Shown here in pieces: positions 9,018-35,729 of a stretch of 64,000 bases of DNA (positions within the stretch are counted from its first letter, which is position 1; the number at the start of each line of letters is the position of its first letter). Both the position numbers and the translations under genes were made by a program. This DNA is from Fennellomyces sp. T-0311 (taxonomy: Eukaryota > Mucoromycota > Mucoromycetes > Mucorales > Lichtheimiaceae): NCBI GenBank assembly GCA_025266875.1, contig JALLLT010000043.1, forward strand, positions 1-64,000, written 5' to 3'. The notes under the pieces are model-generated. The model was not told where the DNA came from. It did not search any database and worked only from the letters and a program-made list of their open reading frames with translations.

Positions 9018-11301
9018 CAGTGGCCGCTCGCTATAATGATATTTTATATAACGATATTTCGATATAACGATATAATTTCCAATTCACCGGGGTGGTACGC
9101 AGTAAAATATCGTTATTTTCATATAGCGATTAGTTATATCGCTCATCCGAAATATCGTTATATCGAGCGAACCAATGATAATATTTTATTTCTAAAAATA
9201 GGAAAAAATGCTGGTTTGCTTAGCGCTATTTCGCTCTTCTGAGTCAAGTTTCTGTATCTTTTTTCTAAGAAGTTGGATGATCTGGATATCCAATTCATCT
9301 TCAACTACCATCAAATCAAGAAGGTCGTTCAAATGACGCTTTCTTTCCATTCTAGAGAAAATCGGAGTTTCCTCACCATCCTCATGTCGTCGTCTCTGTA
9401 CAACTGCTTCTGGATTGTCACCTACCTTACACGTTAGCAATTAATCAGGATTAGATTTCACCCTTCTTAAATACTACATACCAAGCTCATTCTCAATCAT
9501 CACATCATTAATCAGTTCATCAATGGAGACTGTAGCATGAATGTCTTGCGACTCTTCATCTGGAATTAGGTCAATACCCTTTACACCACAGGAATCGTTA
9601 TGAACACCCAGAATTGCTGCGTCAAGTTCATCTGACAAGCGCTGATCATCTTCTTCAGCAGCTTCTTCAACTCCTGCTCCTCAGCTGTTTCAAAATCCAG
9701 CAAGCCAGATTTGATCCAACAGTTTTGAATAGTTTCTGAAGAAACAGAGTTCCATGCATTGGCTGCCCAATTCATACCAGTCAATTGATCCACACTGTAA
9801 AGGTCAGTGAGTTGGCCTTTTCTAAACCGTACACCGGCTTGGCGGTATTGAATTGCCCTAATAATTATCCATTAACAACACTACGTTCGGATGTATATTA
9901 GTATATTGCTTAAGATTAGTAGCTTACCGATAGTGCTTTTTAAAACTTTCAATAATACCCTGATCCAAAGGCTGAATCTTAGATGTAGTATTGGGAGGAA
10001 GAAACATAACTTCAATGTTTTGAAGCTCTGGAACCTTATGGCTTGATGCGTTGTCCATTATCAGCAGAATCTTCTTGTTCAAGTTTCCCATTATAATATC
10101 CAAGCGACGAACCATCTGAGTAAACAGATCAGCTGTCATCCATGCTTTGGAATTATTCCAATACCAATGGAGTTTCGCTTCACCTAAAACGATGTTAATA
10201 TGTATTTCAGTTAAACGTTTTCTTATATAAATTATTAAATAATTTACCAGGTCTTTGCTTGAAGCAACGAGGCTCTTTTGCATGGCCAATGAAAAAAATC
10301 TTTAGCTTATGCGAGCCGTCCGCATTGCATGTCATGACAACCGTGAACCGCGACTTGTCATCTTTCAATCCAGAGAGCGGTTGCTTTGAGATTGTTCTGC
10401 GCGGGACTTGGGCATAGAACAAAGCTGACTCGTCAAAGTTATAAACGTTTGGCAGTCCATATTCTCTGATTTTCTTCTTGATTTCAGAAATTTGTTCCTG
10501 GACAGTAGCACTCATCATATTGGCTGATGCTGCTTCGCCGTGCATAGCTCGAGACTTATACCCAAAGCGCCTCTCGAATCCACTGAACCATCCGTCTGAG
10601 AATTGAAAGTCTTGAATGTTCATTTCTTTTGCAATTGCTTTTGCTTGAGCAGTAATTGCATCACGGTTCAAGGGCACATGGCATCTCTCCATTTCGTCGA
10701 CGTAGCGTGCAAGTACTTCTTCCATATCAGGTTGAGCACAGGACCTTGCTTTTTTGCCACTAAGCTGCTCATCGGTCATGGCCAAGTACTTGTCGGAATC
10801 TGCGATGATAGCAGAAATGGTAGGCTGCTTAGGAACGAAGTCAAGGTTGAACTTCTCTTTTGCCCAGTCTGCAAGTGGCTTTTGCTTCCAGTGGGTTTGT
10901 CGGTACTTGTATACAATTGCTAGTTTTTGGCGATTGGTCAGGGCATTGCGCTTTTTAGGTTGATTGGGCTCTTCGCCGTTGATGATACGCTTGGAGCCAG
11001 TGGCAATTTGATCAGAAGTAATAAGACGAGACGACATAGTGGAAATAAGTGATAATGATGTATACTAAAAGAACATCTGTACTTTATTACCGCCCATTAA
11101 ACTATTTAATAAACACGTTTGCATTTCTTTGTAAGATTCTAGAGCTTTCTTTTCGCTTCTTACATGCGGAGATGCTAATGAGCTATGGGTAACTACTTAA
11201 CCGGATGCATCTTTTCGGAGTGTTAATTTTATATAACGATAATTCGCTATAACGATATAATTTTGGCTGCACCATCATATCGTTATAGCGAGCGGCCACT
11301 G
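9018..11301 (-). mobile_element. Autonomous pogo-type DNA transposon in the chromovirus 5' LTR
   Basis: Terminal inverted repeats start CAGTGGCCGCTCGCTATAA on both sides and are followed by repeated ATAACGATAT-type words. TA flanks both ends (9016-9017, 11302-11303). Removing the element and one TA restores the LTR exactly. It encodes a CENP-B-type HTH and DDE transposase on the minus strand. Confidence 0.93.
9192..11037 (-). CDS. pogo/Tigger-type transposase (spliced, one apparent frameshift)
   Basis: The first exon (from ATG at 11037) carries a CENP-B-like HTH pair (about residues 30-160, with RQKLAIVYKYRQTH and FSDGWFSGFERRFGYKSRA). The DDE_1 domain begins with NVYNFDESALFYAQ. An intron follows near 10257-10192; the next exon has ILLIMDNASSH and the third acidic residue region IQPLDQGIIESFKKHY. 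A second intron near 9926-9855 leads to the C-terminal exon with AANAWNSVSSETIQNCW. In the following Glu/Lys-rich run near 9670-9690 the frame shifts by one base to reach an acidic tail, and a last exon ends at 9192. The product cuts and pastes elements with the CAGTGGCCGCT termini. The frameshift lies after the catalytic core, so activity cannot be excluded. Confidence 0.85.
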
Positions 11302-11345
11302 TACCAATTCTATTTCTTATAACTCTCTCACCACATTTTTTTTCA

Positions 11346-14300
11346 TTGAATTATCAAGTACCTCAAGCTATCAAGATGGTCAAGAACGTCAAGAACACCA
11401 TGCCCACCACTGCCGTTGTCGCTGCCAATGCTGCCGAGGAAACTCGCCAAATTGAGCAGCAGCAAGTCACACCTACTGAAGGTCAAGCCCAAGTACCTGC
11501 CACAACCAGCGAGCAACCTGCGACCACCGGCAGCGAAGATGTTGCCATGATTGACCGTGCTTAGGAACAGGAACTGGAACAAAGTGAAACACATCCGGAA
11601 CCTGATTCTTCCGAAACCGGCACAAATGCCAAAAAGGCCCAGGTTTTGACACTGGAAAATTATTATGCCGACAGGGTTTTAACACCTGGCAACTCAGAAG
11701 CAATTCTGAGAAACCGTCTTGAACAGGCTGCTCAAGCCTACTTCAACAGCCGCAACGAGACTGCGGAAAAACGCCAGGCCTTGAAGGCCGAGCAGCAAGA
11801 AGCCCTGGAAGAGCTACAGACGTACCAGGCAATCCACAAGGCCCTGCAGGCTTCGCAGCCTAAACAGCAACTCACTGTCCCCAATAACATGCCTGCCTTG
11901 CAGATCAGAAGCAGTGTCGTCCGAGATCCGAGCCGTCCCATCCACGAGTCTGTCACGTCCTTTGTCTCTGCTTTCAAAGTCCAGCTCCGCATGCATGGGT
12001 TAGACTTTGATGCCAACTGGGAGCGCCTTATTTGGTCGTGCTTAGATAGCAACCAAGTGTCTTGGTGCCGCCGCGAGCTTGCTGACAAAAACCTGACCTG
12101 GAGACAAGCCGTCCAAGCCATTCATAGAGAGTATGACAACCCATATCACACCTTCCACAAGCGTCATGAGTTGTTCAACACTCGCCCCTGCAAGAATGAG
12201 TCTATCCGTCTCTATACGGAGAGATGGGTAGAATTAGCCCACCAAGCCGGCCGTACCAATGGTCCTGAACTCACCTATGACTACCTTTGTTCCTTGCCGT
12301 CTGCCGTCCGTGAAAAGGTTGTCCCTACTTTGACTCGCCAGTTTGGTGCCCAGCTGCCAAGTGATATAGCTGAAGTGGCGCAGCTTGTTGTTTCGACCTT
12401 AGGGGAGAATCTTGGTGAACACCATGAACAAAATAACAATCAAGACACGCGTAAACGCCGTATAGAACATGAGCATACCTCATCCTCACTTGCTTCGCGC
12501 CATCGTCCAAACGCTAACCAGCGTAAATATGGTGATTGCCCAGTGCATCCACGTGGATCTCATTCTGCAAAAGAATGCCATGTGTTGCAGCAGCAGAGAG
12601 AAGCAGTGCTGCAGCAGGCAAACGCCGTAGCATCAAGCAGTAACAGCAACACGAACTACAACCTCTGCAGGTATTGCAAGAAAGTTCCGTACATTCGAGG
12701 GCACGAGTGTCAAGAATATAGGGATGCGCGAGCAAACAAAGCTGCTCGTGTCACCAACCGCACCGTCCATGTCAGATCCTCACCTTCGTCCACACCATCG
12801 TCCGCACCTACATCCTCGCCTAGGGATAGAACTATTCTAGAAGAAATTCTACCAGGCCAGTTACAGGATATGGATATAACAGGTAAACACAAATGCCGTA
12901 CACTGCAAACAGACACTGATGACTCACTATACACTCCTATTACTGTACAGACTAGACAAGTCTTGGCTCTGCTGGATACTGGGGCGAACCGTTCCTTTCT
13001 CTCGCCAGCTCTAGTAGAAGAGTTAAAGTCAATAAAATCAGTAAAAGTTTTAAATAAAAATGCAGTACAAAATATTACAGTGTCTCTTGCACAAAAAGAT
13101 TCAACAGCTGACTTGCTTGGCTTAGTGCAAAACGTACAGCTTGAGTATAATGAGAAAACGTATACACACGACTTCTTTGTCATGAACTTGCATGGTACTA
13201 CACCAGTCACCATCGGTTTGGACTTAATGTCAAAATTAGGCATTGGCATTACAGGTTTAGCAACTTCATGGAAAAAGGAGAAAACGGAAAAAGATGAAGT
13301 TGACGATGAACCGGAACCTAACAACAGTCCTGCCGGTACAGTTACACAAAGGGCGGAATTCTTCGCTACTGTACAACCTGCATTAAATCGCAACCAGAGT
13401 ATACCACCTGGCGCTCTTTGTCCTATGCCCGAAGCAGTAGTGCGCATTGATACACCTGAAGGAGTAACGTCGAGCAAAAGACAATACACCATACCGGTAG
13501 CGTGCAAAGAGGCAGTTGATGAACAAATCAGAACTTGGATTCAGAATGGAGTGGTAGAACCAGCACCGCCTAACAACCCTTGGAATTCTAGCATCCTAAC
13601 TACCAGGAAAAAAGATTCCGAAGGTAACTATACAGCCATCAGGACTGTCTGTGATTGGAGGCACCTCAATGCTCTGGTCGTAGCACCTGACCGCCATCCT
13701 TTGCCCCTTATCCGGGATATTTTTCACATGCTACAAGGCAGCGAATTGTACACGTCGTTAGATTGTAAAGCCTGTTTCAATCGGCTACCAATTTTGCCCA
13801 GCCATCGTATGAGAACAGCATTCAAAGTAGACGGATTTCCGCAGCTTATGTTCCGTGGAAGTGGATTCGGATTGACACACGTCACGAGTGTAGCACAGCG
13901 TACCTTGTCAGCCTTGACTAGTGATATCCCAGAATGTCTGCATTTTGTGGATGATCTCGTCATAGCAACAAAAAATGACATGAAAGAACACGCTAGAGTA
14001 GTTACCAAGGTTATTGAACGCTTGACAGCTGTAAACCTAGAACTCAATGCTGACAAATCGCACTTTGCACAAAGTAGCATTTACTTACTTGGATTTTGCA
14101 TCTCTGCAAAGCGTATCACACTTGACAAATGCAAAGTCAGTACCATACAGGACCTTGAGTATCCTCAAACGGGAAAAGACATACAACGAGTTTTAGGAGT
14201 GTTCAACTACTTTCGAGAGTCAATTCCTAAAGCAAGCACGTTAATGGCACCTCTGGACAGGTTACGAAACGTAGGGTCACTTCAACCTTACTGGACTACC

Positions 14301-16388
14301 AAGGAACAGCAATGCTTTGACACGTTAAAACGTCTCCTTCTAGAAGCACCGATTTTATGTTATCCCGATACACGCTATCCTTATTCAGTTGCAACTGATG
14401 CCTCTTTAAGCGGCATATCAGCCTGCTTGTACCAGCTTATTGATGGCGAGACGAAGCATATAGCTTTCATGTCGCGCGCATTATCCAAGAGCGAAAAATC
14501 GTACAGCGTCACAACTTTAGAATTGCTTGCCGTAGTGTATGCATTCAAGAAGTTTCATAAGTATTTATGGGGTAATCCTTTCACGTTATACACGGATCAC
14601 AAGAGTCTGACCTATATGCACACCACAAAAGTGTTAAGTGCTATGCTCTTGCGCTGGTATGATGTCATCATGGACTATCCGTTCACAGTCATACACCTGC
14701 CTGGACTAGACAACATTTTGCCTGATCGATTATCTAGACTTTTCCCCACGAAAAAAGATCTGGGGGTAGAAGAACACAGGCAAAAGGTCAGAGTGGCGCA
14801 CCGTAACACACGGAATAAGAAAAACATGAAAGTTCCGAACACAGTAAACACTGATCTGCAAAACAAACAGGTGGAAATCAACCTACCTAAGGACCAACTT
14901 ACAGATACAGAAACATCTGAAGATGCAAATGAGGTCTACTTTGTACCGCCAGAACAGGATAGACATCAATTGTTGGCGAAAGCACATGCATTTGGTCATT
15001 TTGGAGCAGAAGCCATGGTCAAATCGTTACACAACGATGGCGTGAAATGGAACAACATGTATAAAGAGGCTACCACACTTGTTAAAAGTTGCCCACAATG
15101 CCAGCGATTCAATATCGGCAAAGTAGGATATAATCCAGTACGGACCATCCATGCACTTTATCCATCAGATCAATGGGCAAGCGATCTCGCATCAGGTTTT
15201 GGAACAAGCCATCGTGGAAACAACTATTTACTAGTTATGGTCGACATTTGCACACGTTTTTGTGTACTACATGCTATACCGGATAAATCATCCGACACAA
15301 TAGTCAAAGCAGTTATAGACACTTTCTGCGATTATGGTTTTCCACGTTACTTACAGTCAGACAACGGTACTGAATTCGTCAACTCTTTAATGAAAAAGTT
15401 AAGCGAAACTTCAGGCTTTGAACACGTTTTATCCACACCTTATCACCCCAGAGGTAATGGCGTTCCTGAGCGGTTCGTGCAAACATCTATCAATGTGATC
15501 CGCAAGTACGTACAAGGTGCAACCAAAGACTGGGATTTGTATGTCAAGCCTGTGCAACTGGCACTCAATAACAAAGTAGCCAGCAGACATGGTTCTACAC
15601 CATTCGCACTCATGTTCAACAGAGCAATGAATGGATTCCGAGATTACATCAAAGAAATCATCCCCCGGCAAATGACCGAAGAGGAATTGCAGGACAGGAT
15701 CAAAGTAATGTCCGAAGTTGTATTCCCTGCAATAGCAGAGAGAACCAAAGCATTAGCAGACATGAAAAGTGGCAAATACAATGCAAAGTACCGTCTTGTA
15801 GAATATACACCGGGCAGCCAAGTCATGGTAAAAGATGAGACACGACGCAACAAAATGGATCCAAAGTATGAAGGACCGTATACCGTCGTAAGGAAGACCA
15901 AAGGAGGATCATACGTCCTTAGAGATGAACAGGGACTCCTCACATCGCGCAACTATGCTCCATCACAGCTCAAGCTCCTTTCACAGGATGCATTAATTGA
16001 CACTTCCGAAACATATGAGAAAAACGAAAAGTACTACACGATCCAGTCCATCGTAGATCATAACGAGCTAGCTCCGGGAAAGTATGAGTACCGAGTAAGA
16101 TGGAAGGATTACAGCCCATCAGACGATACTTGGGAACCACCAGAGTCCTTCAACAGTCCGCTTGAGATTACAAAGTACTGGGAAAGAGTTGGGAATAAAC
16201 CAACAGAGCAAGCTACAACAGCTGCCAGCACAACTGCAAATGCTACTACCCAAAGACAGCAGAAGCGTAAGCAAACACGCACGTGGTCGCAGGTAAACAC
16301 ACCTTCACGTTACCCTAAGCGCAACAAGCGAAAACAAGTTGATACACCTGCACAAAGATATAGCAAACGCTTGCACACACATCAGTAA
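11346..16388 (+). CDS. Chromovirus Gag-Pol polyprotein with one in-frame TAG
   Basis: One frame runs from ATG 11346 to 16388 (1,681 codons including stops) with a single TAG at 11562-11564, most simply a CAG-to-TAG change because Gln/Glu codons surround it; the rest is open for 1,600 codons. Numbering from 11646, domains in order are: Gag capsid (about 80-220); two unusual Cys/His clusters rather than CCHC knuckles (about 300-360); aspartic protease LLDTGANRSFL (443); reverse transcriptase with FVDD in place of the usual YVDD (766); RNase H with ATDASLSG (917); integrase HHCC zinc region (about 1114-1155) and D-D-E core WASDL, SDNGTEF, GVPERFVQ (1178, 1237, 1274); C-terminal chromodomain with YRVRWKDYSPSDDTWEP (about 1462-1513). 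The chromodomain would direct integration to particular chromatin. No separate pol start or frameshift is present. Confidence 0.93.
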
Positions 16389-16419
16389 GCATACGCTTAA
16401 CAGAATGATGTTTGAACCT

Positions 16420-16431
16420 GGCAGGGGGTAA
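16420..16431 (+). other. Polypurine tract
   Basis: GGCAGGGGGTAA lies immediately before the TG that opens the 3' LTR, the usual place and composition for the plus-strand primer in LTR element reverse transcription. Confidence 0.7.
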
Positions 16432-16831
16432 TGTGGTGAACCACTACATGTATGGACACAATGGAGATCGGTCAAACATCCATTCTAGCACATTCCATCA
16501 GACGAACACTCTGGAAGAGTACTGATGACTAAGATATGAACGGTATTACCTTACACCGGTTTCAAGGAAGCTGAATGATGTTCTACAGGACATGCACCTA
16601 TCACAGAGTACACGGAGTCGATATCTGCCGTCGTCGGTAAAACATAAGACGAACACGCAACCTGATACGTCCTCGACCAAGTATCATTTATCCAGGAACG
16701 GATATTAGAATCTCCAGTAAAAGATATAAAAGAGAGAGAGTTCAGCCATAATAAAGGACATACAATTATTCAGATTCTCAACGAATTCTGCTCTTGTTAC
16801 CAATTCTATTTCTTATAACTCTCTCACCACA
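16432..16831 (+). repeat. 3' LTR of the chromovirus
   Basis: 400 bp from TGTGGTGAACC to CTCTCACCACA, uninterrupted, with two substitutions relative to the 5' LTR (A/G in the ACACRGAGTC word, C/T in GCAACYYGAT). It is followed by the GCAAG target duplication. A TATAAA word is at 16725-16730. Confidence 0.93.
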
Positions 16832-18220: not shown

Positions 18221-19654
18221 ATGAACAACAACAGCATTCCGCCGCCAATTCTCACCCAACGTCCCAGACGTAATAATGCTACAGAAAGAAGACGCCGTCG
18301 AGCAGCATTTATGCGCCTTCAGTACAGGCTATCTGCTTTATTGATGCGAGAATTGTCGCAGCTTTTGCAAGCTCACCTCACCACTTTCGTGCAGCAAAAG
18401 TTAGCCGAACGCATGGTGTGCAATTCTGGACGTTGACTCATCCAAACCTGAACGACGACGATGGCTATGACAGTTACAGATGGCATTACCGCATGAAGAA
18501 ATCAACTTTGGAATGGCTTATCAGTACCTTGTCGACGCATGAAGTATTTGCCTCGGATTCTCCTCGAATGACCCCAGTATACATTCAAGTCTGCTGTGCG
18601 GTGTGGCGTTTTGCAAACACACATGTTGGATACCGCATGTTTGAAACGCAATTTGGTTTAAGCCAAGGGTCGTATCATAACTTCACGATGCGATTCCTAA
18701 ATGCCATCTGCGACGTTCACTGGCGACAGATCAGATGGCCAAGCACACCACAAGAAGTACAGCAAGCAGCACAAGCCTTTTCAGTACCTACTGGACTGCC
18801 GAGCACCCACGATGCAGGCAGAAGGCTACAGGGAGCGATCGGGGCTATGGATGGCAAACTCATCGTCATCCACAAACCTACTAGTAACGGACAGCGCTTT
18901 TGGGATCGTAAATTACACCATTCGATCAATTTACTTGCTGTTTTTACTGCTGATGGAAGATTCTCGTATATAGAAGCTGGTCAATCAGATATTGTCAACT
19001 ACGTATTGAAATATCGATATATTACTCAGTCTAATGTATTTTCAAATCAATCTATAAGGTCGAACCCATGATGCACTTACATTTGCCAATAGCTCTCTTA
19101 ATACGAAGCTATTGAATGAAACTGAACAATGATGCCCAGACGGAAGTTATATCCTTGCCGGTTAGTACTTCGACCATTCTATATCTTGATGGATATTACT
19201 AACATGAAGTTGCCCAAACTTGAAAGACTCTGCGTACCCACTACGACCAACGATAATGGTGCCTTATTCATGAACAGCAACAAGCCTTGCCAAGAAAAAA
19301 TTCAACTTCATTCACTCTTTGATGCGTATGGCCATTGAACGAGCCTTTGGTTGCCTTGTTTCCCGTTGGAAATTCCTACGCCATTATCTTTATCTTCAGG
19401 ATCATGAGCGATTGACATTGGCGATATACGCATGTTGTATATTGCACAACATCTGCATCGAACGGCACGACCTTCATTCAAACGAACTTTTTCCATTGAA
19501 TACAGAAGAAGTCAAAGGTACGACCGGCCGCATTGCTTTAATCGGTTCAGAACACCAACGTGGTATTGGAGACACTGCATCACTGCGTCAACAAGGTGTT
19601 GTAGTATGCGACAGATTAAGAGATGAGTTGTATGAAGCCAGTCGTAGATTGTAG
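18221..19654 (+). pseudogene. Harbinger transposase, decayed
   Basis: Starting from the ATG at 18221 the protein has a basic N-terminus, then shifts frame near 18418-18435 into the catalytic part. The DDE domain is recognisable by GAIGAMDGKLIVIHKP, FWDRKLHHSINLLAVFTADG and, in the last exon, IERAFGCLVSRWKF followed by YACCILHNICIE, the standard Harbinger motifs. Two introns can be suggested: 19003-19059, and one with a TACTAAC branch point ending near 19206. Between them a TGA (19130-19132) replaces the Trp expected in the family, and the frame shifts again near 19250-19310. The product would have been a nuclease needing a Myb-like partner for nuclear entry and end binding. Confidence 0.8.
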
Positions 19655-21173: not shown

Positions 21174-22316
21174 CTACAGACTAGGGCTCTAAACGGGCCA
21201 TGTCTTTTGCTTGAACCCGAAATTACAAGAGCCCAAATTAAAGTGGCCCGCCCGATAAAATCTACAATGTAAACGATCTTAATGCAGCAATGACTAATAT
21301 AGAAGTGAAATGGGGTTCTGCCTTGTGTTATCGTATATAATGTTTGGGCAAAAGTCGTCTTTATTATATTGGATCACGTAATCGCTATCTTGCACACACT
21401 TTTTTGAAACAGCAGAACTTCTGCAAGCAACAAAGGAAGACCAAGAAGTACAAAAAGCCAAAGCGACACAGTGAGACAAACCAGCAATTCGACATCGCAA
21501 ATGGCGTAGGAATGCATCCTGCTTTGCATTTTTTCAGCAGCGTTTTTTCTCTCGATGCCCGTCAAATGGGATTCAGGTCGACCATATTGCTTCAGAACGA
21601 ATTTTTAATCACCACATACAGTACTACTCGACCATATTTATTTTCCATACAACTCAATTTTACCATATGACTCTGCTTTGTTCACCGGCACTCCATTCCA
21701 TTTCGACATTGTGCATCCCAATCAAAAAAGGGTGGCTGCGTACATGCTGTAATGGTGCATCGACAGCCGCCCTTATTGTTTTTCAAATAGGTACACTTTT
21801 TCAAGCGCACTACTCAAGATGAAGAATGCTTGTCGTAGCTCTTTTTTCTTTATCCGATGGTTTTCCGCGAAGCACCACATTTAGTAAGCCAAAGGTTGGT
21901 ATTTTTCGGTAATAAAGTGTCTGTACGGTCGAGGCACTTTTCAATCACTATTGTTATCCTTTTTTTTCATGTAATAAAGCTATCATTATACTGACCCACT
22001 TTATCTTCGCGTTTTACTTCTGCTTACACAATGCCAGCTGGAAATTATCTTTGCTTGAACACATAGCCCTTTCACACTAATGCCGATCCTATCCAAGCTC
22101 AAAGACATTTGCAGATTAGCGTGCTGCAGGCAGTTTGAATAGTGCTAATTGACGTAGCAGCCTTTCATTGTCGCAACTTGGCCCATCAACACCAATCATT
22201 GTGTAACCGGATCATTGTAGAAACTGCTCAACATTTTGACAAATCTTTCCATATTAAAGATGTATACTTAGTTGATTAATCTTTATTTGCAATACTCGGT
22301 TTTGATCATCGGAAAA

Positions 22317-22470
22317 ACTGTCAACCCTTCTCAACCCCGTCAACCCCGATTCACGGACCCCCCCGCCTTCAAATGTGCTCTCAACATTGAGCGGGTTTAT
22401 AAACCCTTCTCAACGTTCAGTCAACACACCACAACGTTGTATCGTATTTATAAATCATGCAAACGTTAGG
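22317..22470. repeat. Left subterminal repeats of P2
   Basis: Multiple CTCAACC/GTCAACC words and GGGTTTATAAACCC, matching the set at the right end. Such repeats near the ends are typical transposase-binding arrays in CACTA-related elements. The words point in the same plus-strand direction at both ends rather than mirroring each other. Confidence 0.6.
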
Positions 22471-22982
22471 AAGATTATTTAGCTGGAGAGCCTTCACGCG
22501 AGCCAAATCAATTATATAGTGTATACACATTCTTTCCAACCCATTCACAGTATTATATATATACTGTATACGATATTTTCTTTCAAAATATGGACGTTTT
22601 ATTCGTTTGGACATACAAACAGCTATTTACTCTAGTTCATGCGTCTTCTTTTGACACATCACAAAATGGTAAAAACCATTTGGGACATCAAATGGCAACA
22701 TATCACCCTTTCAAGGCCATTTTAACCTTTGAGTGCCCAAAATGATAATGTGAAACCTTAAATGGTCTTGCATGGCCATTTAACACACGAAATAGATTAG
22801 GACGACTTATATATAGCCTTTAATGGCACTGAAAGCAAACATAGTAGAATCTAAGGCCTATTTTACCAATTCACGTACTATAGAGTAACAGATATCTTTA
22901 ATTCACTCCGTTTATCAAGAGTACATATTCCAACTTTAGCTAGCGTTTTTATCTTACATTATACGGCCAAGTTAACGCTTTA

Positions 22983-25900
22983 TTAAGACCATTTTACAAG
23001 TTCTTGATCCGGGATATCAATGAAATTCTTAGTTGCGCCGTACGACCAATGATTTGGATCAATATCATGATTGACCAAGTAACAATCATAAATTCCGTCC
23101 TCTTCTTCGATTTGATTCAAGGCAGTAGAAAAATCAGGAACGACGTGTACAAGACGTTCGATGTTTTTGATTGACATGACACATAACCCTTGCTGTCGTA
23201 TATCCGAGTCGTTTGGGTATTTAACAACTTGCAATCCACTCGCATGAACCTCTTCAATGTAGGTGAATACACGTACAAGACATAACCGCTCTTCAACAAC
23301 ATCACAAAATGGATCATCACTTTCCATCGTGAAGGTCCTTTCAATGTTGAAAAAAAGCAAGACTTGTACAAAATACCCATCCTTGGTCTGTACAAAGTCG
23401 TACCGAGCTCGTCGATGAAATGATGGGTTTGCTCTGATGAATTCCGTATAACTTGTTCCACGATCATCGGTATCATTTATCTTGAGAGTTTGATAAGCAT
23501 ATATCTATAAAAATAGAAACAAAAAATTCCCATTTGAAACGGAATTGATGCACTAAACGTAATTACCTTGTTATTTTTTGGCTTTGGCATATTTTTGAGT
23601 TTCACCGGTTTTTCACCGTCTTTAAGAGTACTGAGGTATATACGTGTAAGATTATAAAGTTCTTTGAGCGAAGGATGCTTTTCTGAAAGTTCGTCAAAGT
23701 TAGTCGGATTGTTGCTCATCAATGGGGATGATGGAACGAGGTCCGGGTCTTGTGCTGTGTCCGGTGTATTCATGTTGCCACAGTTGGAGATCTTGCCTTT
23801 CATCTTACTCTTAATTTCTTCAGAGGAGGCAGCTTGATATGTGTCAAACAATAAATCACGATACATGACGTAATTTGCCATCTGAATAGCGAATGTGCTG
23901 TTTACAAAGTTCGTCCGTTTTGCTGGCTGTTTTGCGTCAAATTTGTGCTGGCTCTCTGAGTGCAAGGTGCTGTAGCCGTTTATACATCCCTTTTGGCGGA
24001 TATCAAACATATACTTCCACAATGCATGATTTTTTGGAAAGATCATTTTGTTCTAACGGTAAGAAATCAGTAACCAAGAATATAACGTTGTAGCGACAAA
24101 TATAAAGTACTGTGGAGCTGAAAACTGCGCTATACTTGTTATATAATCGTAAGGATTCCTGCATGTCCGCCAGTGTTTCTTCTGTGTGTTCTTTTGCCAA
24201 AGCCTGCTGGACAAAGTCGATGAAATGACGCATGCACCGTACAATTTGTGGCGGTAAAAGATCATGAGTGCATGCCATAAAAATCTGATAACTCAAAGCA
24301 TTAGTTACAGTCTATCCCTATAAAATCACAATATTACACATACCGCCATATGACTTCTTAGTTCGGTGTATGTTGGGTTTTTTAGCGCGCTGGGAAAGAA
24401 TCCGCTTGTAAAAGGACGAAGTTTACGAAAAAGGGGCAATATCGATGCTCTACAGTGTCAAAGAGTATAAGATTTTTTATGCAGTATTCGAGCTATAGAT
24501 ACCGACCTTTTTGTAATTTGCTTGATAACATCATTGGCGCCACGATCTTTCAAGATATTTTCAATAAGACTTAACAAGTTCGAATACATTCCGCCAATCT
24601 GATGTAAATCATCAACTGTCAATGCCTGATATATATCAAATAAAGGAGCTTTCCAAAATGCGTTCTGGTTTATATCGTGAGTATGTCAGCACATAGTATT
24701 TCTGTGCTCACTAACCTCGACAAGATGATATGAATGCCTTTGTCCATGTTTTAAAGATTCTGACTTTCCAAGACTCTTGCCTTTTTCATATAATTTTTTC
24801 ATATACTTTTTGGTACGGCCCACGGATTTTCCTTGATCAAACGAAAACTCATACTGACAATGGAAACTGCACGTGCCAACTTTGCATCGAGGACACGAAA
24901 AATTTGAAGAACCACCTTTGACGAGTGCCAACATCCTTCTAAAAATACATATATATATATGTTAATCTTCAATAATCTTGGTACAAAAGTCACATACTGT
25001 TCTGGTAAGTCTGCTATGTAACAGGCAAGTGCTGGGATACACTTATATTGTTTATTGCCAGGACCATTCATCCGAAACGCTTGTACTCTAAATGCTATAA
25101 TGATAAGTATTTCAGATACGTTTAACTCTCCAATTCAGAAATACTAACTTATCTGCGGTATTGCAAAAGCGACCAAGTATTTTAGATAAACAGTAGTGTA
25201 TGACTGCATACTTCGCAGTGGTGAACCATGAAGGGACATTCGTGGTTGCTTTCCAATCTATTGTGGGGAAGTAAGCAAGCAGACGACTTGCTCTATAGCA
25301 AGGCTGATCCCGGGCTTCCACTGGAATATTGCCTACATTACAATATGTTTACGCTATAAGAATACTTGATATACAACTGGATTTTAGTCCAGTGCTTACC
25401 TAACTTCATGTATACTGGCCAGGCTTTCGTACGAAAATTTCCTGATACTGTGGTCTGGTCCGAGGCAAGCATGATAGGTAGTAAAACATACTCATCAGAC
25501 AGCTCCGCCTGTATGTATATTATTGTTAACTGATGCTTTATATATATTTCTGGATCCTTACCTGCAATGATTGCCACCAATTACCGGAGTCAATATCGCC
25601 ATACACTCGTGGACCATTGACATCGTCATCACGCCGGTAAATACTTGGATAAATGTTCATAACTTCAGAGAATGACGGATGGCTGAACAGATGCTCACAG
25701 AGGTCATGCATATCTCGGTAAACAAGTTCCAGGGGTTCTACTATGCCTTCAGTAAACTCCTTTTCGTGTCCTTTGGGAAAATCGTCGATGGCATGCACAT
25801 CGATAGGACAGGTTATAAACTCCTAGACATTTACCATTAAATATTGAATTTTATGCCAAAAGTAATGTAGTTCTTTGATTAATTACCACTAGTGAACAAG

Positions 25901-26582
25901 GATCCGCATCTTTTTTTAAAGTGCTTTTGAGTTTATCCAAGGTGGTCGTTTTGATTTCGATCGTCTTTTTAGCTGTGTGTGTCATACTCATTCCTGCCTG
26001 TACAATTTTCACAAAACTTTATACAGAGATATTAATACGTAAGTATTACCAGTTCACGTTCGTAAAGCTGTTACCTCTCGTATTCCGAATTCGACAACTC
26101 TGTGTCAAAAGCAAACTCTGCCAGCATTTGCTCTAGAGCGTTCAACGATCCAGGATATTTCGGTAACTCAGCCTCTTTTCTCGTAGTCTTGCCGTCTTCT
26201 TTGCTGTTTTTAATGACACTATCTTCTTCCACAGGAACGAGTGGTACTGAAACAAAAATATGTTAGTGAAATGATTCGCGTGGTTTTGTGACACTATACT
26301 TTTGAATAGCCTCGAGCTTTGAGATTCCTCTTGATTAGATTTCTCGGGAGGGCTCAATGAGTAAAGTGGCGTTGAACGAGGATCATTAACAGCTTGCTTT
26401 TTACGAGCGCTGTCGGGATCGCATGATTTGAATACTTTGCGCTTCACTGATCGGTTTGGTCGTATAGTTATTTCTTTTGCGGCCAGCGACTCCGTACTAT
26501 GCACAGCATCGTAATGCCGTTCGAGGGCACTTGGTGTTTTGAAAGTTTTCTGGCATGACTTATGCTCACAGGTAGCTGTCAT
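22983..26582 (-). CDS. P1 transposase, Plavaka-like (multi-exon)
   Basis: The N-terminal exon from ATG 26582 carries a C2H2 zinc finger (CEHKSCQKTFKTPSALERHY). Later exons contain the Plavaka core: FSHPSFSEVMNIYP, VYGDIDSGNWW, then SDQTTVSGNFRTKAWPVY (about 25440-25500), followed by RASRLLAYFPTIDW and a Cys-rich segment with CPRCKVGTC. The C-terminal exons (24300-22983) include the conserved PKNHALWKYMFDIRQ and ESQHKFDAKQPAKRTN regions and end with NIERLVHVVPDF and CYLVNHDIDPNHW, aligning with the end of P2's transposase. About ten short introns are implied; no disabling stop was noted in the exons read. It would act in the nucleus on the AATGGCC-rich ends. The family is related to CACTA and KDZ transposons; exact exon edges were not all resolved. 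Confidence 0.75.
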
Positions 26583-26678
26583 TTGTCAAAGTGGAGCGAC
26601 CACTTGGGGCTGAGTTGGTGTTACTTGAAACAATGCAGCCGCAGCCGCAGCAGGACAACACTTCTTCCGCTTTCAACA
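26583..26678. promoter_or_regulatory. Compact divergent promoter of P1
   Basis: Only 96 bp separate the start codons of the transposase (minus, 26582) and accessory gene (plus, 26679), so the control region must be shared or lie within the first exons. No clear TATA box is seen. Confidence 0.45.
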
Positions 26679-28450
26679 ATGAGAATTAAAAATAAGTCAA
26701 CAAGGAAAGTAGTACCAGGTACGATCAGTAAAGATCGAATATATATGTTGTGGGTTAAGTATTTCTGCAGCCGTTCTTCAGGATCGATCAAACGAACTTA
26801 ACAAGGAACAAAGCGTTAATTCCCAAAAATCTCAAAACAAGCGAAAGACGCGGCCTGCACCGTCTCTTCATGATCCAGCACCAAAAGTGACAAAAAAGTA
26901 ATACATTGCTTGAACGGAATGTGTAATTTTTTTAAAATTAATCGATCCTTGTTTATATAGAGCAAACACTAATCTAACTCCAGTCCCATCCAGTGTTACC
27001 CACGCGAAAGGTACAGCTGTGTCCAGAGTATTGGCTGAAGTACCAACAAATGAACCCAATGCCGCGTAAGTATCTACTTACGACTAAAGTCATTCGCAAA
27101 CGTTTTAATTAATTCTTCTTGTGGGCACCGAAAGTTTGAATGTCGATTTCGCATCGGCTTCTGATGATGCTGATGATTCTGAAGGGCGCGGCGAACTGGA
27201 TAGTGGCGACGAACGTGACGATACTAGAGCTAAACAGTATCTTCACGACGATACCGAAGAAGAGGGCAACAGTGAGTCTGAAGACGATTCGAACGGGAAA
27301 GCATCAAGCGAAGACTCAGAGGAAGATATAAAGTAAGTCTCGTTAACAGTATGTGAATAACAACTGATCGCTGTTTTCACTACTGTAGTCTTGACAACCG
27401 TCAGCTACGTGGGATTGTAGTCAAGGACTTCCACCGGTATGTTTTTTATAAGAAAAGATCGATGACTGAAAATATGCATCTATATGTAGAGAAAACTTGA
27501 GAATCACAAAAGAGAAAGACAAGTCTGAGTTCAGAAAGCAAGCAAGACGTTTTGGTTATCTTGAAACCACGTTTCCCAACAATGATGAGGTTACCAACGG
27601 TTGTGTCCAAACCGCATTGGAAGCTCTTGGTCTTCCATACAACGAAGATTTACGCTATCGTGTGGACCATCGGTTGCGAAAAATGGTGTGTATGATTCAG
27701 AGGCACCCGAAAGACGATTCTAATTTTAATTTACAGTTCCGTAAAGCTGTATCTGATTCCCGATCTGCCCTGGTTCTATCTGCTGCAGATTACCTACGTG
27801 ACTATGACTTCGATGGCATGGCGCTTCGGAAAAGGGGTGTCACAATACAGCGTTCCCGCGTACAATACCATTGGCTTTTAAATGGGTCCCGGTAAGCTAC
27901 AGCAACCTCTTGATTAAATTTTAATACGCTCTGCTCAAATTATTATGCTATACAGTTTCGCGCGCGAGGGCTTCAATGATACTGGTGCTTTGATGGAGAA
28001 CCCATGTCTTGGCCATTTTATCCATCAGCTTTTTTTTAACAAGCAGTCTTCGAGAAAACGATTGGATTATCAACAACACGTGGTGACGGTCCCGGTATTG
28101 ATCCTTACGTACACTGTGGTATGTTCGACCTTATTAAACATCATGATATACGGCACATACTAATATATCGCAACAACTAGATGTGTTTCACAATGGCGAG
28201 TGGATTTGGGCACAAGACGGTCGCGACAAAGGTGAACCAGGAGTTCTCGGAGAAATCAGAGTGGAGAAACACATATTTTGGAATGCTGAACGGACCAGAA
28301 AGTCGAATGGTTAAGTGGAAAAATGCACTTGAAATTCAGCAAAACGTTGTTGATTCCTTGGAGAAGTCGAACTCTGAAAGCAACTTTTGCCTAGCGGATC
28401 TTTTGACAGTGCATACGGATTCAGAAGGTGAGATGACGGATGACGAGTAG
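26679..28450 (+). CDS. P1 accessory protein (gene B), acidic, multi-exon
   Basis: Starts MRIKNKSTRKVVP at 26679. Introns with good GT-AG signals are inferred at about 26718-26770, 26909-26960, 27067-27140 and 27333-27388, then near 27438-27488, 27894-27955 and 28120-28180. The N-terminal part is basic, the middle is very acidic (DSEGRGELDSGDERDD). The C-terminal domain has ARRFGYLETTFPN and YHWLLNGSRFAREGF, both with counterparts in P2's minus-strand gene (ARFVALENAFPN; IYRYMVEDHR then FARKNYK), including an intron just before the FAR motif. It ends in another acidic tail. No known domain recognised. Two-protein CACTA elements use a second protein for binding subterminal repeats; a similar job is an inference. 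Confidence 0.65.
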
Positions 28451-28559
28451 CTTCTAGTTATATATTTCGTACAATGTTTGTTATCATTGAATAAAGTGGA
28501 TGCTGTGATATAAAGACACCAAAATATGTTTTCCAGTCGAAAAAATAGCCATTACTTGT

Positions 28560-28740
28560 ATATGTAGAAGAGTTCTCAATGGATATAAACAGCCATTAAT
28601 GACCTAGCAAGAAACAACGTTCGTGTTAAATGGCCATAAAATTTCGTATAATTTACCATTTAGGGCCATTGGAGGCCATGCGAGATGGGGGGTAGCCAGT
28701 CAAGCCATTGGTGCCTTCAAAGGCCATTGAGACTCATGAA
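28560..28740. repeat. Right subterminal repeats of P1
   Basis: At least seven GGCCATT/AATGGCC words, mirrored by a similar cluster at 22664-22800 on the left. They end at TCATGAA (28734-28740), the P1 terminus. Confidence 0.65.
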
Positions 28741-30474
28741 TGGGCCAGAATGGAAAAACGACTTTTGGGATGCAGGCTTTGCCTGAGTGCGGACGATATC
28801 CGCCTCAGGCGCTTCAGGAGCCATGGAATATGGCTGGTGGGCTTGCAACTCTTCTTGACGTATAACGCCAGCAAAAAGCTCGGCAACACTACGTTCTGCA
28901 TTGCTAGCTTTTAACTTTGCACGTTCGATGTGCTCGTGCACCCATTTCTGAACTGGTAGCCAGGAAATGTACTTGCCGAGCTCACCGGTGCTGCTAAGCA
29001 TGTCACGGTAAGCCCTATCCCAGAAGGAGTCCCACTTGAATTCGTCTTTCTGGGCAGTACGCTTGCCCTTGGTACCGCCAGAATCCTCATTCACAGCATT
29101 GCTGGGCCCACCAGCCGCATCATCGATGATCTTCTCACCTTCCTGCTTCTCCATATCCCCGATTTTCTTGCCCAACCGATACAAAATCTATATACGAATA
29201 TATAAGCTTGAGTACTCACCTTAGTATTGGTGTAATTACCATCAGTGTAATGAGCGCGATACACTCCTTGGATATGAGGCGGGGGCAAGGATTCAGCTTC
29301 TTAATCCCACGGCCACAGACAAGCACACTGACAATACAGTCGATGATGCACCGCGAGTAGAGATACTTTCCATCGAGCTTGTAGTTCTTGCGAGCGAATC
29401 TATTAATGATACATATGCAAGTAACATAAGCTTTGTGATTTACAAGGAAATCGATGCAGTAATACAATACCGATGGTCTTCTACCATGTATCGATAGATC
29501 TCGATCCGGGAGCTTACATCCGCAGGAAAATCGCAACCGGGGAAAGTATAGCCAGCCAGCCAATTGTTAACAGCACTGTGAAGCTGTGTACGTTGGATAG
29601 AGATCATCCTGAAGTACTACAAATAAGAGATTCGAATGTTATGTTCAATATAGCACGATACCATTCTGCTCTATGCTTACATGGCCGTCGAGCGTTGGAC
29701 TAATTGGCCTGTCTGGTTCAAAAGTGCCACCAAAAATCAGCTGGAGCTGTTTCTTACATGACAGACTTGCGTCTGCCACGTTCGGAAAGGCATTTTCCAA
29801 AGCTACAAAGCGAGCAGCGCCTTTCACCAGAGCTGGCCATTGAGGAGAGCCTACCTCAATATTATAATGAGGTGGAGGTGGGGGCGTAACAGCACTTGAT
29901 AGTGAAGAGTATATGAATATGCAAGATGCAGGGGACTAATAGATTGCTTACCTTGATTGCGGAAGCTGCTGCAAACGCTGAGGAACGTTTTTGATGCGAG
30001 CAACCTTTGGTGCTGCACCTTCATCCTCGAACTCAGATTCGTCCAAAGATTCTTCCAAAGATTCTTCCTACAATTGATACATGATTAAAGATGTGCTTCC
30101 CTTCAAAGGTTGCTATACCTCTTCATTCCATTGACGACTGAAAGATGGGCTCAGATTCGGCATTCGGACGCTAAGAAAAGAATGTCGCCAAAACGGTTTA
30201 AATGACGACTATATCACCCACCACTGTAAAGAACAAACTGATATACAACTTACATAGAGCCATTCTGCCCAGCATTCGAAGCAAGGACTCTTCTGCCTTG
30301 TTGCTGGCTCATACTTTCGTCCTCGTCTTCCAAATCTATAAAAGATAATTGCACCAATGTAAACAATACGAATGTATCCATGCATAGCGCGGTCGCTAGA
30401 GTGTATTTACTATGTATCAAGTAGTTGGCAGGTGGCCGATACTGTTTTCTAGTAGGGTTTGGAGTGTTAACCAT
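28717..30474 (-). CDS. P2 accessory protein (gene B), C-terminus altered by the P1 insertion
   Basis: Starts MVNTPNPTRKQYRPP at 30474. Exons with clear GT-AG borders give acidic blocks (NLEDEDES; EESLEESLDESEFEDEG), then WPALVKGAARFVALENAFPN, WLAGYTFPGCDFPADVSS, FARKNYKLDGKYLYSR, GVYRAHYTDGNYTNTK and a last exon YRLGKKIGDMEKQEGEK. The final exon is 29184-28717 and ends HSGP followed by seven residues and a stop contributed by P1's end. Across the P1 insertion, the left flank reads CTA GAG TAA (22635-22627), so the undisturbed gene would end two codons after HSGP. One exon border near 29300-29340 is unresolved. It is homologous to P1 gene B; function unknown, probably an element-specific DNA-binding or regulatory partner of the transposase. 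Confidence 0.65.
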
Positions 30475-31047
30475 TTTTTTACAAGTAATTAGTAAGAAAG
30501 AAAACAAAAGTATTTTCAGTGACTGACTGCTGTATCCGCACGCGAAGGCGGTACTGATCTTTGTCATCGGTGTTTCGCGTATAGCCTATCAAACCTTATT
30601 CTGATAATTCGTTTTTTGGCGTTGTAGCACCAAGCGGAATTAATATAAATCGCCGTTCCATTAACACCAATGAAAAACACATGGCAAGCGGCGCGAGCCG
30701 GATCATGAAAGACTTTCCCAGTTGGTGGCGATTACTATTTTCCATAGCATTCCATGATCATCACTAATGTACTTGCTAAAGCTGTAGAAAATATAAGCTT
30801 AGCAACGGAACGTCAAGTTCGGGCTCATGCATATCATATGCAAATCGCGGCATATCTGAGCTTATTTATCTTCTTTTAAGTTTCTTTGGGCTTCTCTTTT
30901 GCATTATAGGTGGCAGTATATAGTGAATGATCACGATACTTGATAAAAATGTACGAATTACCAGGTTGACAGTCTGTGTAACAAACATTTATGTTAGCTT
31001 AATTTATCCGTATACATGAACCACTTTTATCACTCTTTACATTCACC
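30475..31047. promoter_or_regulatory. Divergent promoter region of P2
   Basis: 573 bp between the start codons of the accessory gene (minus) and transposase (plus), AT-rich, with no ORF of interest. The presumed shared control region of the element; individual motifs were not identified. Confidence 0.4.
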
Positions 31048-34000
31048 ATGCCACACCAATATCAATGTTGCTATCGTAACTGCCTCTCTAAGCGCACATT
31101 TGCGTCAGTAAAGGCTCTTCGTTCTCATATAATGACGATGCATGCGAATCAACCTTTGCCATTTGTCGATACGCCATTGCAGTGTTCTGAAGATGATAGC
31201 ACAGCGGATGCCCATATGTCATCACTGACTGAGCAAATAAATGAAAGTAACTTGCTTCACGAACAAGAAGCTCATGTTGCGCCCATGGATTTTACTATGG
31301 AACATGACACGCTAGCCGACAAAAACGATGAAGATGCATATATTGAAGGTACGTTACAACGGTAAAATAGACTCGTCGACTCGATATCAACGTGTTTGCG
31401 CTACAAAGAACCTTTCTCTGGGGATTTGTGGTCTAAGCCAGCCAGCTCGAAGAACTCCCCAAAGGCAATTGACATATCTAGCCTAGAACTATTGATTGCC
31501 GAGTTCGCTTTAGATAACGGGCTCTCACAGGCACAATACAAGCGGTATAAAATCAAAAAACATTATCAAGATATTATATTCTCAACTAATTTCGAGTATA
31601 CCTTAGCCTTGTTGAACTTATTATGATTGCTCAAGAGCATGCAAGAGTGGCGCCATTGGAGCATAATGCACTATTCACGACTTTCGATAGCGTATTTCGA
31701 ACGATATCTAAGAATCAAAGCGAGAAGTATACACTGGTACGTAACCGTTGATGTTATGTGTATGTCACGATGAATTTTTTCAAACAACTCGACTACGTAT
31801 TTTCTAGCCGTTTAAAACCGAAAAGATTGATCTCGATCTTGTTCCTGACTTCCCTAAAAAGCACAAACAGCAATTCCTGGAGGTAATTGGCCAACCGTCC
31901 CTCATTTACCGCGATATTCGCAATTTGGCCGAGAAACTCTTCAGCCATCCACTATTCAACGACGTAACACGTTTACACCCCGCTACTGTTACCAGAGATG
32001 GAAAAAGAGTATATAGCGATATCTACAGCGGACAATGGTGGCAAGAGCTCCAGGTATAAATATACCAAGCGATTTAGCATCAGTGGTATACGTATTAACG
32101 CGGTTAATGTTCGTCCATAGAAGATATCAAAGGAGGGATGCGTTATTCTTGGTCTTATGCTTGCATCAGACAAAACAGTAATTACCGGCAACCTGAGAAA
32201 TAGTGCGTGGCCGATATACTTGAAGCTAGGTTAGTAGTAACATATGGCATAAATATGGTTAATGTGTAACGGCTAAGCATTTTATGGCTACGTAGCAAAC
32301 ACTCCTTTTGAGTATAGAACCAAAGATACATTGCACGGTACTCGCTTACTAGCATATTTGCCGGTTATTGAAAGCAAGAGGTTGTCGAATAAGAAATGGT
32401 TTCCATTAGCAAAAAAGGCGATCTTCCATTACTGTATTAGTCTCGTCATGGCACCTTTTCGAAAGTTCGACATCTTCAAGATGCAAGGGCCAGATCAAAA
32501 AGTATACAAATGTATCCCCGCGTTGGCAGCGTATTCCGCAGATTACCAAGAACAGTAAGTATCGCTGACTCTTTGCATGTATATTTATTAAACATTATAT
32601 TAGATCGCTTCTCGCCTTAGTTAAAAGCGGAAATACCGCCCGAGGTTGCCCACGTTGCTTCGTTCTGACAAGCGAGTACCGCGAAAACGGTACAGCGGAA
32701 CTACGAACGTCATCCAAGATGGAACATTTGTACAAACTTGGAAACGGTCTTTTGCACGGCACCGAAGGAGAAAAAGAAGAAGATGAAGAAGATGAGGAAA
32801 TATTCATGGAGATTTCAATGCATAACATCCAGGTACTATCAATCAATAATGTAGATATTTTACTTTTTTGCTAAACATGGCATTATACTATATATGATAG
32901 AACGCATTTTGGAAACTTCCTCAACCATTCTTTGATCTCCATGATTCACTACTTGTGGATGACTTGCACCAGCTTGGCGGTGTATACGAACACTTGCTCA
33001 ACTGTCTCGACAAACTGATCATGGATCTGAATGGTACCAAAGGAGCTTCCATCATTGAAGAAATTAACAATCGAGCATCCATGATACCTCAGTACAAAGA
33101 TCATCGTCGGTTCAACCAAGGCATTTTTCCACGCTTTTTGCGAAATCCAACTTATACGGAATGGCGAAGCAATATGGCTATCATCTTACCTTGCTGTTAC
33201 GATTATATTCCTCTACAAGCAGCACTTTGCTTGCGTCATTTCTTGGATTTCGTAATGCACGCCACCGCCGAGGAACATACCGAGGATAGTCTTACTGAAA
33301 TGGAGGAGTCATTGGATGCATACTATAAGTACAGTCCAATATTCCAAAAGTACTCTCCATCCGGTTTGAACTTCCCCAAAAATCACATGCTTCAAAAGTA
33401 TGCCCACGATATCCGATCTCGGGGTATAATCAGAGGCTATAGCACAACCAGCTCCGAGCATCAACACACTATCGATGTAAAGAAGCCGGCAAAACGAACT
33501 AACGGTCGGTTTGATTCGCTGTCCCAAATGGCCAACTTTATTCAAAAGAAGGACCTACTTTTTGACGTTGCCATAAACCAATCAAGTACTCTTACAACAT
33601 CACTTCGCGCAAAAGCGACAATTTCCAAGATCATTTCCAGACGAAGCCAACTGTCATATAAGCTCGCATCAGAAACAGATCCCAAAGAAGTATCCGTATT
33701 ATCACAGCAAGGCACTTTCCATGGATTGTCCATAATCCTTCGCTCCTTCTTCCACACCACTATCGATAACAACTTCGCACGTGTTGCACTACGCAACTTA
33801 CCACAGCTCGACGACGATACGATCAAGGTGTATCAAACCTTGATAGTAGAGGACTGCGACACCAATGGCAAGGTTATTATCGACAAGATCAGAACACATG
33901 ATCAGTTCCATGGCCGTGAAAGGAAAGATTTCGCGGTATTTGAGTTCCCCAACATCAAGGACAGGAGCGACAAAGAGATATACGAGTCGTATGGCCAAGT

Positions 34001-34391
34001 CCTCATGGTCTTCCGGGCGAAGTACAGGGGTAGAGAATACGATCTGGTACTGGCACGCCGATACTGTCCTTTGGGCGAAACACACAAGACTGGGTTAGAG
34101 GTTATTTCACCTGACCTTGACGATACGTATAAAGGCCTGTTTATAAGCCAAATCGAACGGGTAAAGCGTACAATCCATGTCGTTCCGGATTATGATTCAG
34201 ATGCTTTCGTTGATCCTGTCCTGGGATCAATGTATGGAAAGTATTTACTGAATCATGATTCGGATCGGTTTTCCTGGTGCAACAGCAGAGGCCGACTTCC
34301 ACATATCAATGAAAGAAGCAAAGAGTTTGTTCACTGGAATAAGGAGTACGATAATCCCAAGCAAGTAGGCACGGAAGATGATGACGCCTAG
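31048..34391 (+). CDS. P2 transposase, Plavaka-like (multi-exon)
   Basis: Exon 1 (31048-31348) encodes a C2H2 finger (CCYRNCLSKRTFASVKALRSH). Following exons give FSHPLFNDVTRLHP, VYSDIYSGQWW, the signature ASDKTVITGNLRNSAWPIY (about 32160-32225), GTRLLAYLPVIESK, a CPRC-type Cys motif and an acidic spacer. The last exon runs from about 32901 to 34391 and is a long uninterrupted block with DDLHQLGGVYEHLL, LRHFLDFVMHATAEEHTE, FPKNHMLQKYAHDI and EHQHTIDVKKPAKRTN, all typical of Plavaka transposases. It ends with the region duplicated in P3. No disabling stop was found in the exons read. The enzyme would act on CATCGGAAAA termini. It stops 299 bp before the right end. Confidence 0.82.
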
Positions 34392-34504
34392 ATCTACCTA
34401 AGAGTATTTGATATTATTGTCTATAAAACGTTGCGCATTCATATGCTTGGTTACTGTTTATAAAGGTGCTTAACCCGCTTCAACACAATTCAAGGTAGAT
34501 AAAA

Positions 34505-34690
34505 TCTGTTCACGATTTTAAACGCTCTCAACCCTCTCTCAACCCCGCCAACATTTTGGCAAGTTTATAAACCCTGTCAACCCTCTCTCAACCCCGCTAA
34601 ATGTTTTGGTAGGTTTATAAACCCTGTCAACCTTCACTCAATCCCCGCAACCTTCATAAGGGCTTAATCAGCGGGGTATCTTTTCCGATG
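34505..34690. repeat. Right subterminal repeats and terminus of P2
   Basis: Repeated CTCAACCC/GTCAACC words, two AGTTTATAAACCC-like palindromic words and the terminus TTTTCCGATG. Near-identical to 2612-2797 in P3. Confidence 0.7.
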
Positions 34691-35729
34691 ATAGAATCAA
34701 ATTACATATATAACAAGGGCCTCATTTAGATGGGCGTTTCATAAAGAATATATATATATGCTTCACATTCCGGCACTCGGTCAGGCCGCTATATAGGACC
34801 GTGCCCGTTCGGGCACCCACCTACATACAGCTTTCCTGGCCCGATGCCCGAAAATTCCAGGCCAAAACGGGCGGTCCACGGGCCTGCCTGCCCATATTTA
34901 GAGCCCTACTACAGACAAGCTCCATTTTCACTTGCCACCCACAATGTTGCTCTTATGGACGTGGAAATCGAATCCAACAGGTGCAGTCCAGGCAATGCAC
35001 GTTTTATTGGCTACAAGATGATCCTCAAAGTGCCCTTGGAGTTCTGCTGGGATATTGTTTGTATCTTTTTGCATTGTTGACTAAGAGCTAAATGTAGACT
35101 GGAAATAATATTTAGTACTGCAATCAGAATATTATTCAATAGTAGCCACGAATCAGTTCGATGTGTACTTGTAAGTTGAAAATAATATGATTTATTATCG
35201 TCTTCTATGCAGTATTTATACTTTTAGATCACTAATGATATTTTGGCTAGTAGGTAATGCATCTATGAAGGTAGCTTCGCAGCTTAAGTGACCTTGCCAA
35301 CCTTGGCACCCTTAGTGTCCTTTCCAACCTTGGCAACCTTGGAAAATTTAGCAATCTTGGCAAGTAATGCTACATTTGTTAAAGACTGTAATACTTCGTG
35401 GATCTGGCGTAACAGTGATCTGAAGGTTTGAAAAGTACAGATTTGTTCTGATTGGCTGGTAATAAATTACTAGTAAGGGCAATAGACAGTCTTATCACTT
35501 TATTAAACGCCGTTTTAGCGAGCATATAGTTAAAAGTGTACTGCTAGCGATGAGTTGAATAAACGATTCAATGACATTTCTTGAATCATGCTGCTTTTTA
35601 GCGTTCTATACGGAGTTTGAAAGGAACGCTATAGGGGACATCGATGAGAAGGGTCTGTCTGTTATCACATATAAAACGAAAATTTTTCGATGTTTTAATA
35701 AATAAAATAATCAACAAGCACAATAACGA

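Follow-up and report, generated by a model that had tools for sequence, protein, structure and literature searches.

The 64,000-nucleotide stretch of DNA analyzed here (the window, C121:1-64000) comes from the mould Fennellomyces sp. T-0311 (Mucorales, Lichtheimiaceae; genome of 45.6 Mb in 182 contigs) and contains a three-layer nest of transposons, in which a non-autonomous hAT element is interrupted by a Plavaka element, P2, and this in turn by a second Plavaka element, P1. The two pieces of the hAT element add up to 1343 bp, P2 measures 6266 bp once P1 is removed, and P1 itself 6116 bp, and the layers are bounded by target duplications of 8, 2, and 2 bp, respectively, with empty sites seen for two of them. 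P1 and P2 lie in opposite orientation and share a two-gene plan, a transposase gene and a second gene that point away from each other (Table 1). An earlier note on this DNA, made from the letters of the sequence, had named the three layers, their families, and their order of insertion, and had given sizes of 1.34, 6.28, and 6.1 kb; the duplications, empty copies, and domain matches described below bear out the layers, families, and order. Two of the three junctions that it placed also stand (21181/34909 and 22306/34691), while the third, between P2 and P1, was put at 22635/28741 and is really at 22656/28773.

Boundaries of the three layers

The inverted ends TAGGGCTCTAAA of the outer layer, at 21182 and 34908, lie immediately inside CTACAGAC on both flanks, which confirms the 8-bp direct repeat that had been described around them. 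With the 1125-bp left piece as the query, at least 43 matches were found in the genome, the window included (40 of 130 candidates scored), and 30 loci, the window among them, were cut out so that 29 other copies could be aligned. The 8-bp duplication is perfect in 16 of the 29 and has one mismatch in a further two, and the left end is longer in most of the fetched copies than in that of the window. All 29 run continuously across the P2 site, without P2 and with the site unduplicated, and carry there a single dinucleotide, AT in 27 and AC in two (L019 and L020). P2 therefore extends from 22307 to 34690 and AT is its target duplication; the sequence CATCGGAAAA is indeed inverted at these two positions, as had been noticed, with AT on both sides. 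Six other P2 copies could be read at both ends, and four of them have a 2-bp duplication.

The boundaries of P1 are given by two sets of data. Of the fetched P2 copies, 11 cover the site (L032-L036, L040, L041, L044, L046, L049, and L051), and every one of these is continuous there with a single CA, joining 22656 to 28775. There is also one other full-length match to P1 in the genome (query 22657-28772), at C155:93141-99256, with a bit score equal to that of the self-match, all 6116 bases equal, and the same end bases; its flanks are unrelated to those in the window and TA is duplicated on both sides. The search for empty copies that the earlier note had suggested thus upholds its hAT/P2 junction in 29 of 29 hAT copies and contradicts its P2/P1 junction in 11 of 11 P2 copies, the ends that it gave for P1, 22636/28740, being off by 21 bp on the left and 32 bp on the right.

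The insertion order of hAT, then P2, then P1 follows from the nesting. Divergence from the nearest copy drops inward in the same direction, from 3.34% for the hAT element to 0.24% substitutions for P2 (nearest copy L032) and 0 for P1, a gradient that appears to agree with this order, and we infer that P1 is young enough for recent activity.

The assignment of P1 and P2 to Plavaka is based on the PF18759 domain of their transposases and on 2-bp duplications, AT for P2, CA for P1, and TA for the P1 copy on C155. Single exon pieces already pass the PF18759 cut-off of 26.3 (38.5 bits for P1, 36.4 bits for P2), and the matches of the rough spliced models span almost all of the profile, beginning at position 40-44; a C2H2-like N-terminus of the P2 transposase scored below the cut-off. 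All four ends of the two elements are CATC, extended to CATCA at the left end of P1 only and to CATCC, CATCG, and CATCG at the others. From stop codon to nearest element end there are 326 and 322 bp in P1 and 325 and 299 bp in P2, so that the previously estimated spacing of 290-350 bp remains valid once the ends are corrected. The 15-bp inverted subterminal word that had been reported in P1 is present at 22772-22786 and 28623-28637 and is 100% complementary. Subterminal repeats in P2 exceed the control, with 7-mers that occur 7 to 10 times across the two ends compared to at most four times in random interior pairs; those of P1 (five copies of a 7-mer) are not above the control, at least four copies being found in 24 of 263 random interior P1 pairs. 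The P2 element of the window has fewer repeat units near both ends (22307-22337 and 34511-34658) than other P2 copies.

Table 1. Features of the nested transposons in the window (positions are those of the window)
Feature	Position	Strand	Description
8-bp target duplication of hAT layer, left copy	21174..21181	none	CTACAGAC
8-bp target duplication of hAT layer, right copy	34909..34916	none	CTACAGAC
hAT element, left piece	21182..22306	+	1125 bp; terminal TAGGGCTCTAAA
hAT element, right piece	34691..34908	+	218 bp; starts with second AT copy of P2 duplication
P2 target duplication	22305..22306	none	AT; other copy 34691-34692
P2, left piece	22307..22656	+	CATCGGAAAA end, subterminal TCAACCC repeats, last codons and stop of second gene
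P2, right piece	28773..34690	+	runs to TTTTCCGATG; first two bases are second CA copy of P1 duplication
P2 second gene	28773..30163	-	annotated relative P0010, 372 aa; stop at 22632-22634
P2 transposase gene	31048..34391	+	rough spliced model, 946 aa; PF18759 129.2 bits
P1 target duplication	22655..22656	none	CA; other copy 28773-28774
P1 (Plavaka)	22657..28772	-	6116 bp; ends CATCACAAAA / CATCCCAAAA; transposase on minus strand
P1 transposase gene	22983..26582	-	rough spliced model; PF18759 129.9 bits
P1 second gene	26679..28450	+	BJV82DRAFT_629315 (P0007, 433 aa); DUF6532 PF20149 41.1 bits (cut-off 24)

Second genes and their association with Plavaka transposases

The second protein of P1 contains a DUF6532 domain, which is also matched, at the same cut-off, by the relative P0008 (39.3 bits), while the relative P0009 stays below it (22.8 bits). 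A Pfam scan gave no DUF6532 match for the P2-type second proteins, P0010 and P0011. Comparison of P0010 with the P1-type proteins yields an hhalign probability of 93.5 (E 2.3e-7) and a weak BLASTP score of 32.7 bits, and by this profile comparison the second protein of P2 is a remote relative of the DUF6532 type of P1. A structure predicted for the second protein of P1 from four sequences was uninformative (mean pLDDT 35.8).

With the corrected ends, P1 lies inside the coding sequence of the second gene of P2 rather than beyond its stop codon, where the earlier ends had put it, and interrupts the last exon seven codons before the stop. The protein ends AKPVKRRRMN in natural copies; in the window the frame runs into P1 and terminates after other residues, and judging by this reading frame the second gene of P2 is broken at its end in the window copy. 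Uninterrupted copies of the gene are present elsewhere in the genome. The ratio dN/dS for the second gene is below 1 in all 23 comparisons listed between P2 copies, which are not independent (0 to 0.56), and is 0.14-0.18 in those that pair L036 with copies other than L049; since the values are below 1, they speak for selection on the second protein. Two further loci appear to have disrupted second genes. At L036 (C111:18817-27787), a P2 copy at about C111:19940-26287 is located between two parts of a different second gene, both on the same strand (C111:19497-19685 and 26291-26467), which seems to be another case of a Plavaka element inserted in the second gene of a Plavaka element, and the matches at C156:76411-77048 and 80592-80897 appear to be one second gene interrupted by about 3.5 kb.

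Searches with single proteins gave at least 117 exon matches to P0010 and at least 47 to P0007, which fall in 64 places, the two of the window included, and a genome search with PF18759 gave at least 147 matches in 75 groups (123 of 181 candidates scored). A Plavaka group is found within 5 kb of 47 of the 64 second-gene places, and in 45 of these the two genes are divergent, at distances of 1.0 to 3.0 kb (median 1.8 kb). The 5-kb surroundings of the Plavaka groups make up 1.68% of the genome. When the copies of the P2 family are excluded, 39 of 52 places are near a Plavaka group, 37 of them divergent, and in the reverse view 45 of the 75 Plavaka groups have a second-gene neighbor. As controls, a Plavaka group at a distance of 5 kb or less is found for none of 41 hAT transposase matches and for two of 39 hAT-like copies. 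Many of the 64 places represent a small number of families in repeated copies and so are not independent cases. The link between second gene and Plavaka transposase far exceeds chance expectation within this genome. The 17 places without a Plavaka neighbor include some on contigs without any scored Plavaka match; because the PF18759 scoring took 123 of 181 candidates, some of the 17 may have such a neighbor, and one of them, C95:132439-133347, adjoins a DNA match to part of the P1 transposase (C95:130300-131955). Searching all six frames with the PF20149 profile turned up a single place, which lies 1.6 kb from a Plavaka match; the single-protein searches were far more sensitive.

The constant place of the second gene, its pattern of divergence, and the repeat arrays at the ends of P2 suggest a role for the second protein in transposition. 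We put forward, tentatively and as the less probable reading, that the Plavaka elements of this genome are two-component systems in which the transposase depends for transposition on a divergently encoded DUF6532-type partner, perhaps one that binds the repeats near the element ends in the manner of TnpA in En/Spm elements. If so, this would give DUF6532 a function, and the insertion of P1 would have disabled P2 as a source of the second protein.

Proposed course of insertion and alternatives

We consider it highly probable that three cut-and-paste transposons inserted successively, each into the previous one, at the corrected boundaries. In the course of events that we propose, a 1.34-kb non-autonomous hAT element would have inserted at 21181/34909, duplicating 8 bp, presumably after mobilization in trans by a full-length hAT element such as those of 4837 bp with the same ends that are described below. 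P2, a 6.27-kb Plavaka element with two divergent genes, would then have inserted into the hAT element, duplicating AT, and P1, a 6.116-kb Plavaka element of another family, would have inserted into P2 in the opposite orientation, duplicating CA. We infer cut-and-paste movement by hAT and Plavaka transposases, and likewise which transposase would have moved which element. Nested transposons are an ordinary and common kind of event, and at this locus it is well documented. Several points nevertheless weigh against this account. The 8-bp duplication is lacking in 11 of the 29 other hAT copies, and the 2-bp duplication in two of the six other P2 copies (L032 and L033). The window copy is the most isolated of the 30 hAT copies, and its 3.34% divergence from the nearest may reflect a subfamily instead of age. 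The arrangement is that of the assembled sequence, and the gene models are splicing guesses. As to the copies concerned, the 11 hAT elements (among L002-L030) keep intact ends, inter-copy recombination being one possible cause, and L033 has TTAGC one base out of register on both sides (TTAGCA before, ATTAGC after).

The whole arrangement could be considered the product of recombination between repeats, or of an error in assembling them, rather than of successive insertion, given that all three layers are repeats and that the hAT copies without duplications are a possible sign of recombination between copies; since every one of the three levels has its target duplication and two of them have continuous empty sites, we regard such an origin as very improbable. 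Little more likely is an outer element from another superfamily with 8-bp duplications. Such duplications are not unique to hAT, being 8 bp also in Zisupton according to the part of Kojima (2025, PMC12730594) available to us, and the window copy encodes no transposase. The hAT end patterns, however, pair up to delimit two elements of 4837 bp, C177:39807-44643 and C178:24063-28899, and inside each of them there is a Dimer_Tnp_hAT match above the cut-off. The C178 element, compared by its ends (1001 and 320 bases), is flanked on both sides by a duplicated ATTATCAT and has both subterminal stretches, about 290 bp on the left and 300 bp on the right, in common with the window element at 88-89% identity. 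Since these ends are common to an element with Dimer_Tnp_hAT, the window element is, on this comparison of ends, a shortened relative of a hAT element; with the middle of the window element as the query, the C178 element was not among the matches listed (40 of 114 candidates scored). The 8-bp duplication, the short terminal inverted repeats, and the full-length partners with a Dimer_Tnp_hAT match are what places the outer layer in the hAT superfamily.

The alternative with the least to recommend it, which we judge to have practically no chance of being correct, is that P1 ends at TTCATGNGTCT (22636/28740), just past the stop codon of the second gene of P2. Inverted copies of this sequence do exist at 22636 and 28730-28740, as an 11-bp match with one variable base, but the left member is P2 sequence and the right one P1 interior: the left TTCATGCGTCT, or a variant of it, is present in all 11 of the P2 copies that lack P1, some with base changes. 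Furthermore, no target duplication adjoins the pair (TAG / TGG), the match of the copy on C155 continues as far as 28772 and does not extend leftward beyond 22657, and a query that starts at 22637 aligned no earlier than 22656. Between the 250-bp stretches around 22636 and 28740 there are eight inverted 11-mers with no more than one mismatch, compared to 0 to 4 in 40 random outside pairs, so the neighborhood is rich in inverted matches, yet the TTCATGNGTCT pair does not represent termini. Termini at 22636/28740 were therefore rejected, the full copy on C155 and the empty sites in P2 placing the ends at 22657/28772.

Other elements are present in the window outside the nest. A Ty3/gypsy-type LTR retrotransposon with a chromodomain (8650-16800) has direct repeats of 369 bp at 8650-9018 and 16432-16800 (99.5% identical); its open frame of 1607 codons has matches to RT, RNase H, integrase, and Chromo, and within the span of the element is a piece of a Tc5-type transposase (HTH_Tnp_Tc5, DDE_1; 10210-11064, minus strand). 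A DDE_Tnp_4 transposase piece is located at 18277-19068 (plus strand), and a right-end fragment of the P2 family at 2412-2800 (313 bp at 97% in 2488-2800 and 80 bp at 91% in 2412-2487).

Significance and comparison with known systems

The nest alone is a well-dated example in Mucorales. Through the empty copies available for two layers, the ends of two Plavaka families are known to the exact base, as is the case for few Plavaka elements, and the second gene beside the Plavaka transposase is a better lead than the nest itself; were the link general across fungi, it would explain DUF6532, a domain in many fungal genomes. A search of the available literature found nothing on Fennellomyces transposons, and we make no claim that the link has gone unreported. 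DUF6532 came up there in one paper, PMC8955403, where it and Plavaka are both listed among the domains of two Ganoderma species.

The outer layer resembles non-autonomous elements of the hAT superfamily in its 8-bp duplication, its short inverted ends, and the ends that it has in common with elements bearing Dimer_Tnp_hAT, and differs from them in nothing notable. Plavaka was reportedly described by Iyer et al. in 2014. For P1 and P2 the closest comparison is with the PlavakaB lineage, for which the accessible portion of Kojima (2025, PMC12730594) gives 2- or 3-bp target duplications and termini CATCA..TGATG, in families that come from Agaricomycotina. P1 and P2 are like PlavakaB as presented there in their PF18759 transposase, 2-bp duplications, and CATC..GATG ends, and unlike it in that their host belongs to the Mucorales and that one of their four ends is CATCA. 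Their second genes are also unlike TET/JBP, no TET/JBP domain being named in the Pfam scans of these genes.

The En/Spm (CACTA) elements of plants likewise have two products, TnpA and TnpD, which are splice products of one gene. P1 and P2 are similar in having two products, CA..TG-type ends, and repeats near these ends (clear in P2, not in P1), and different in that the products come from two divergent genes. We would guess that the second protein has a role like that of TnpA, binding repeats near the ends, a comparison drawn from the repeats of P2 because those of P1 are within the control.

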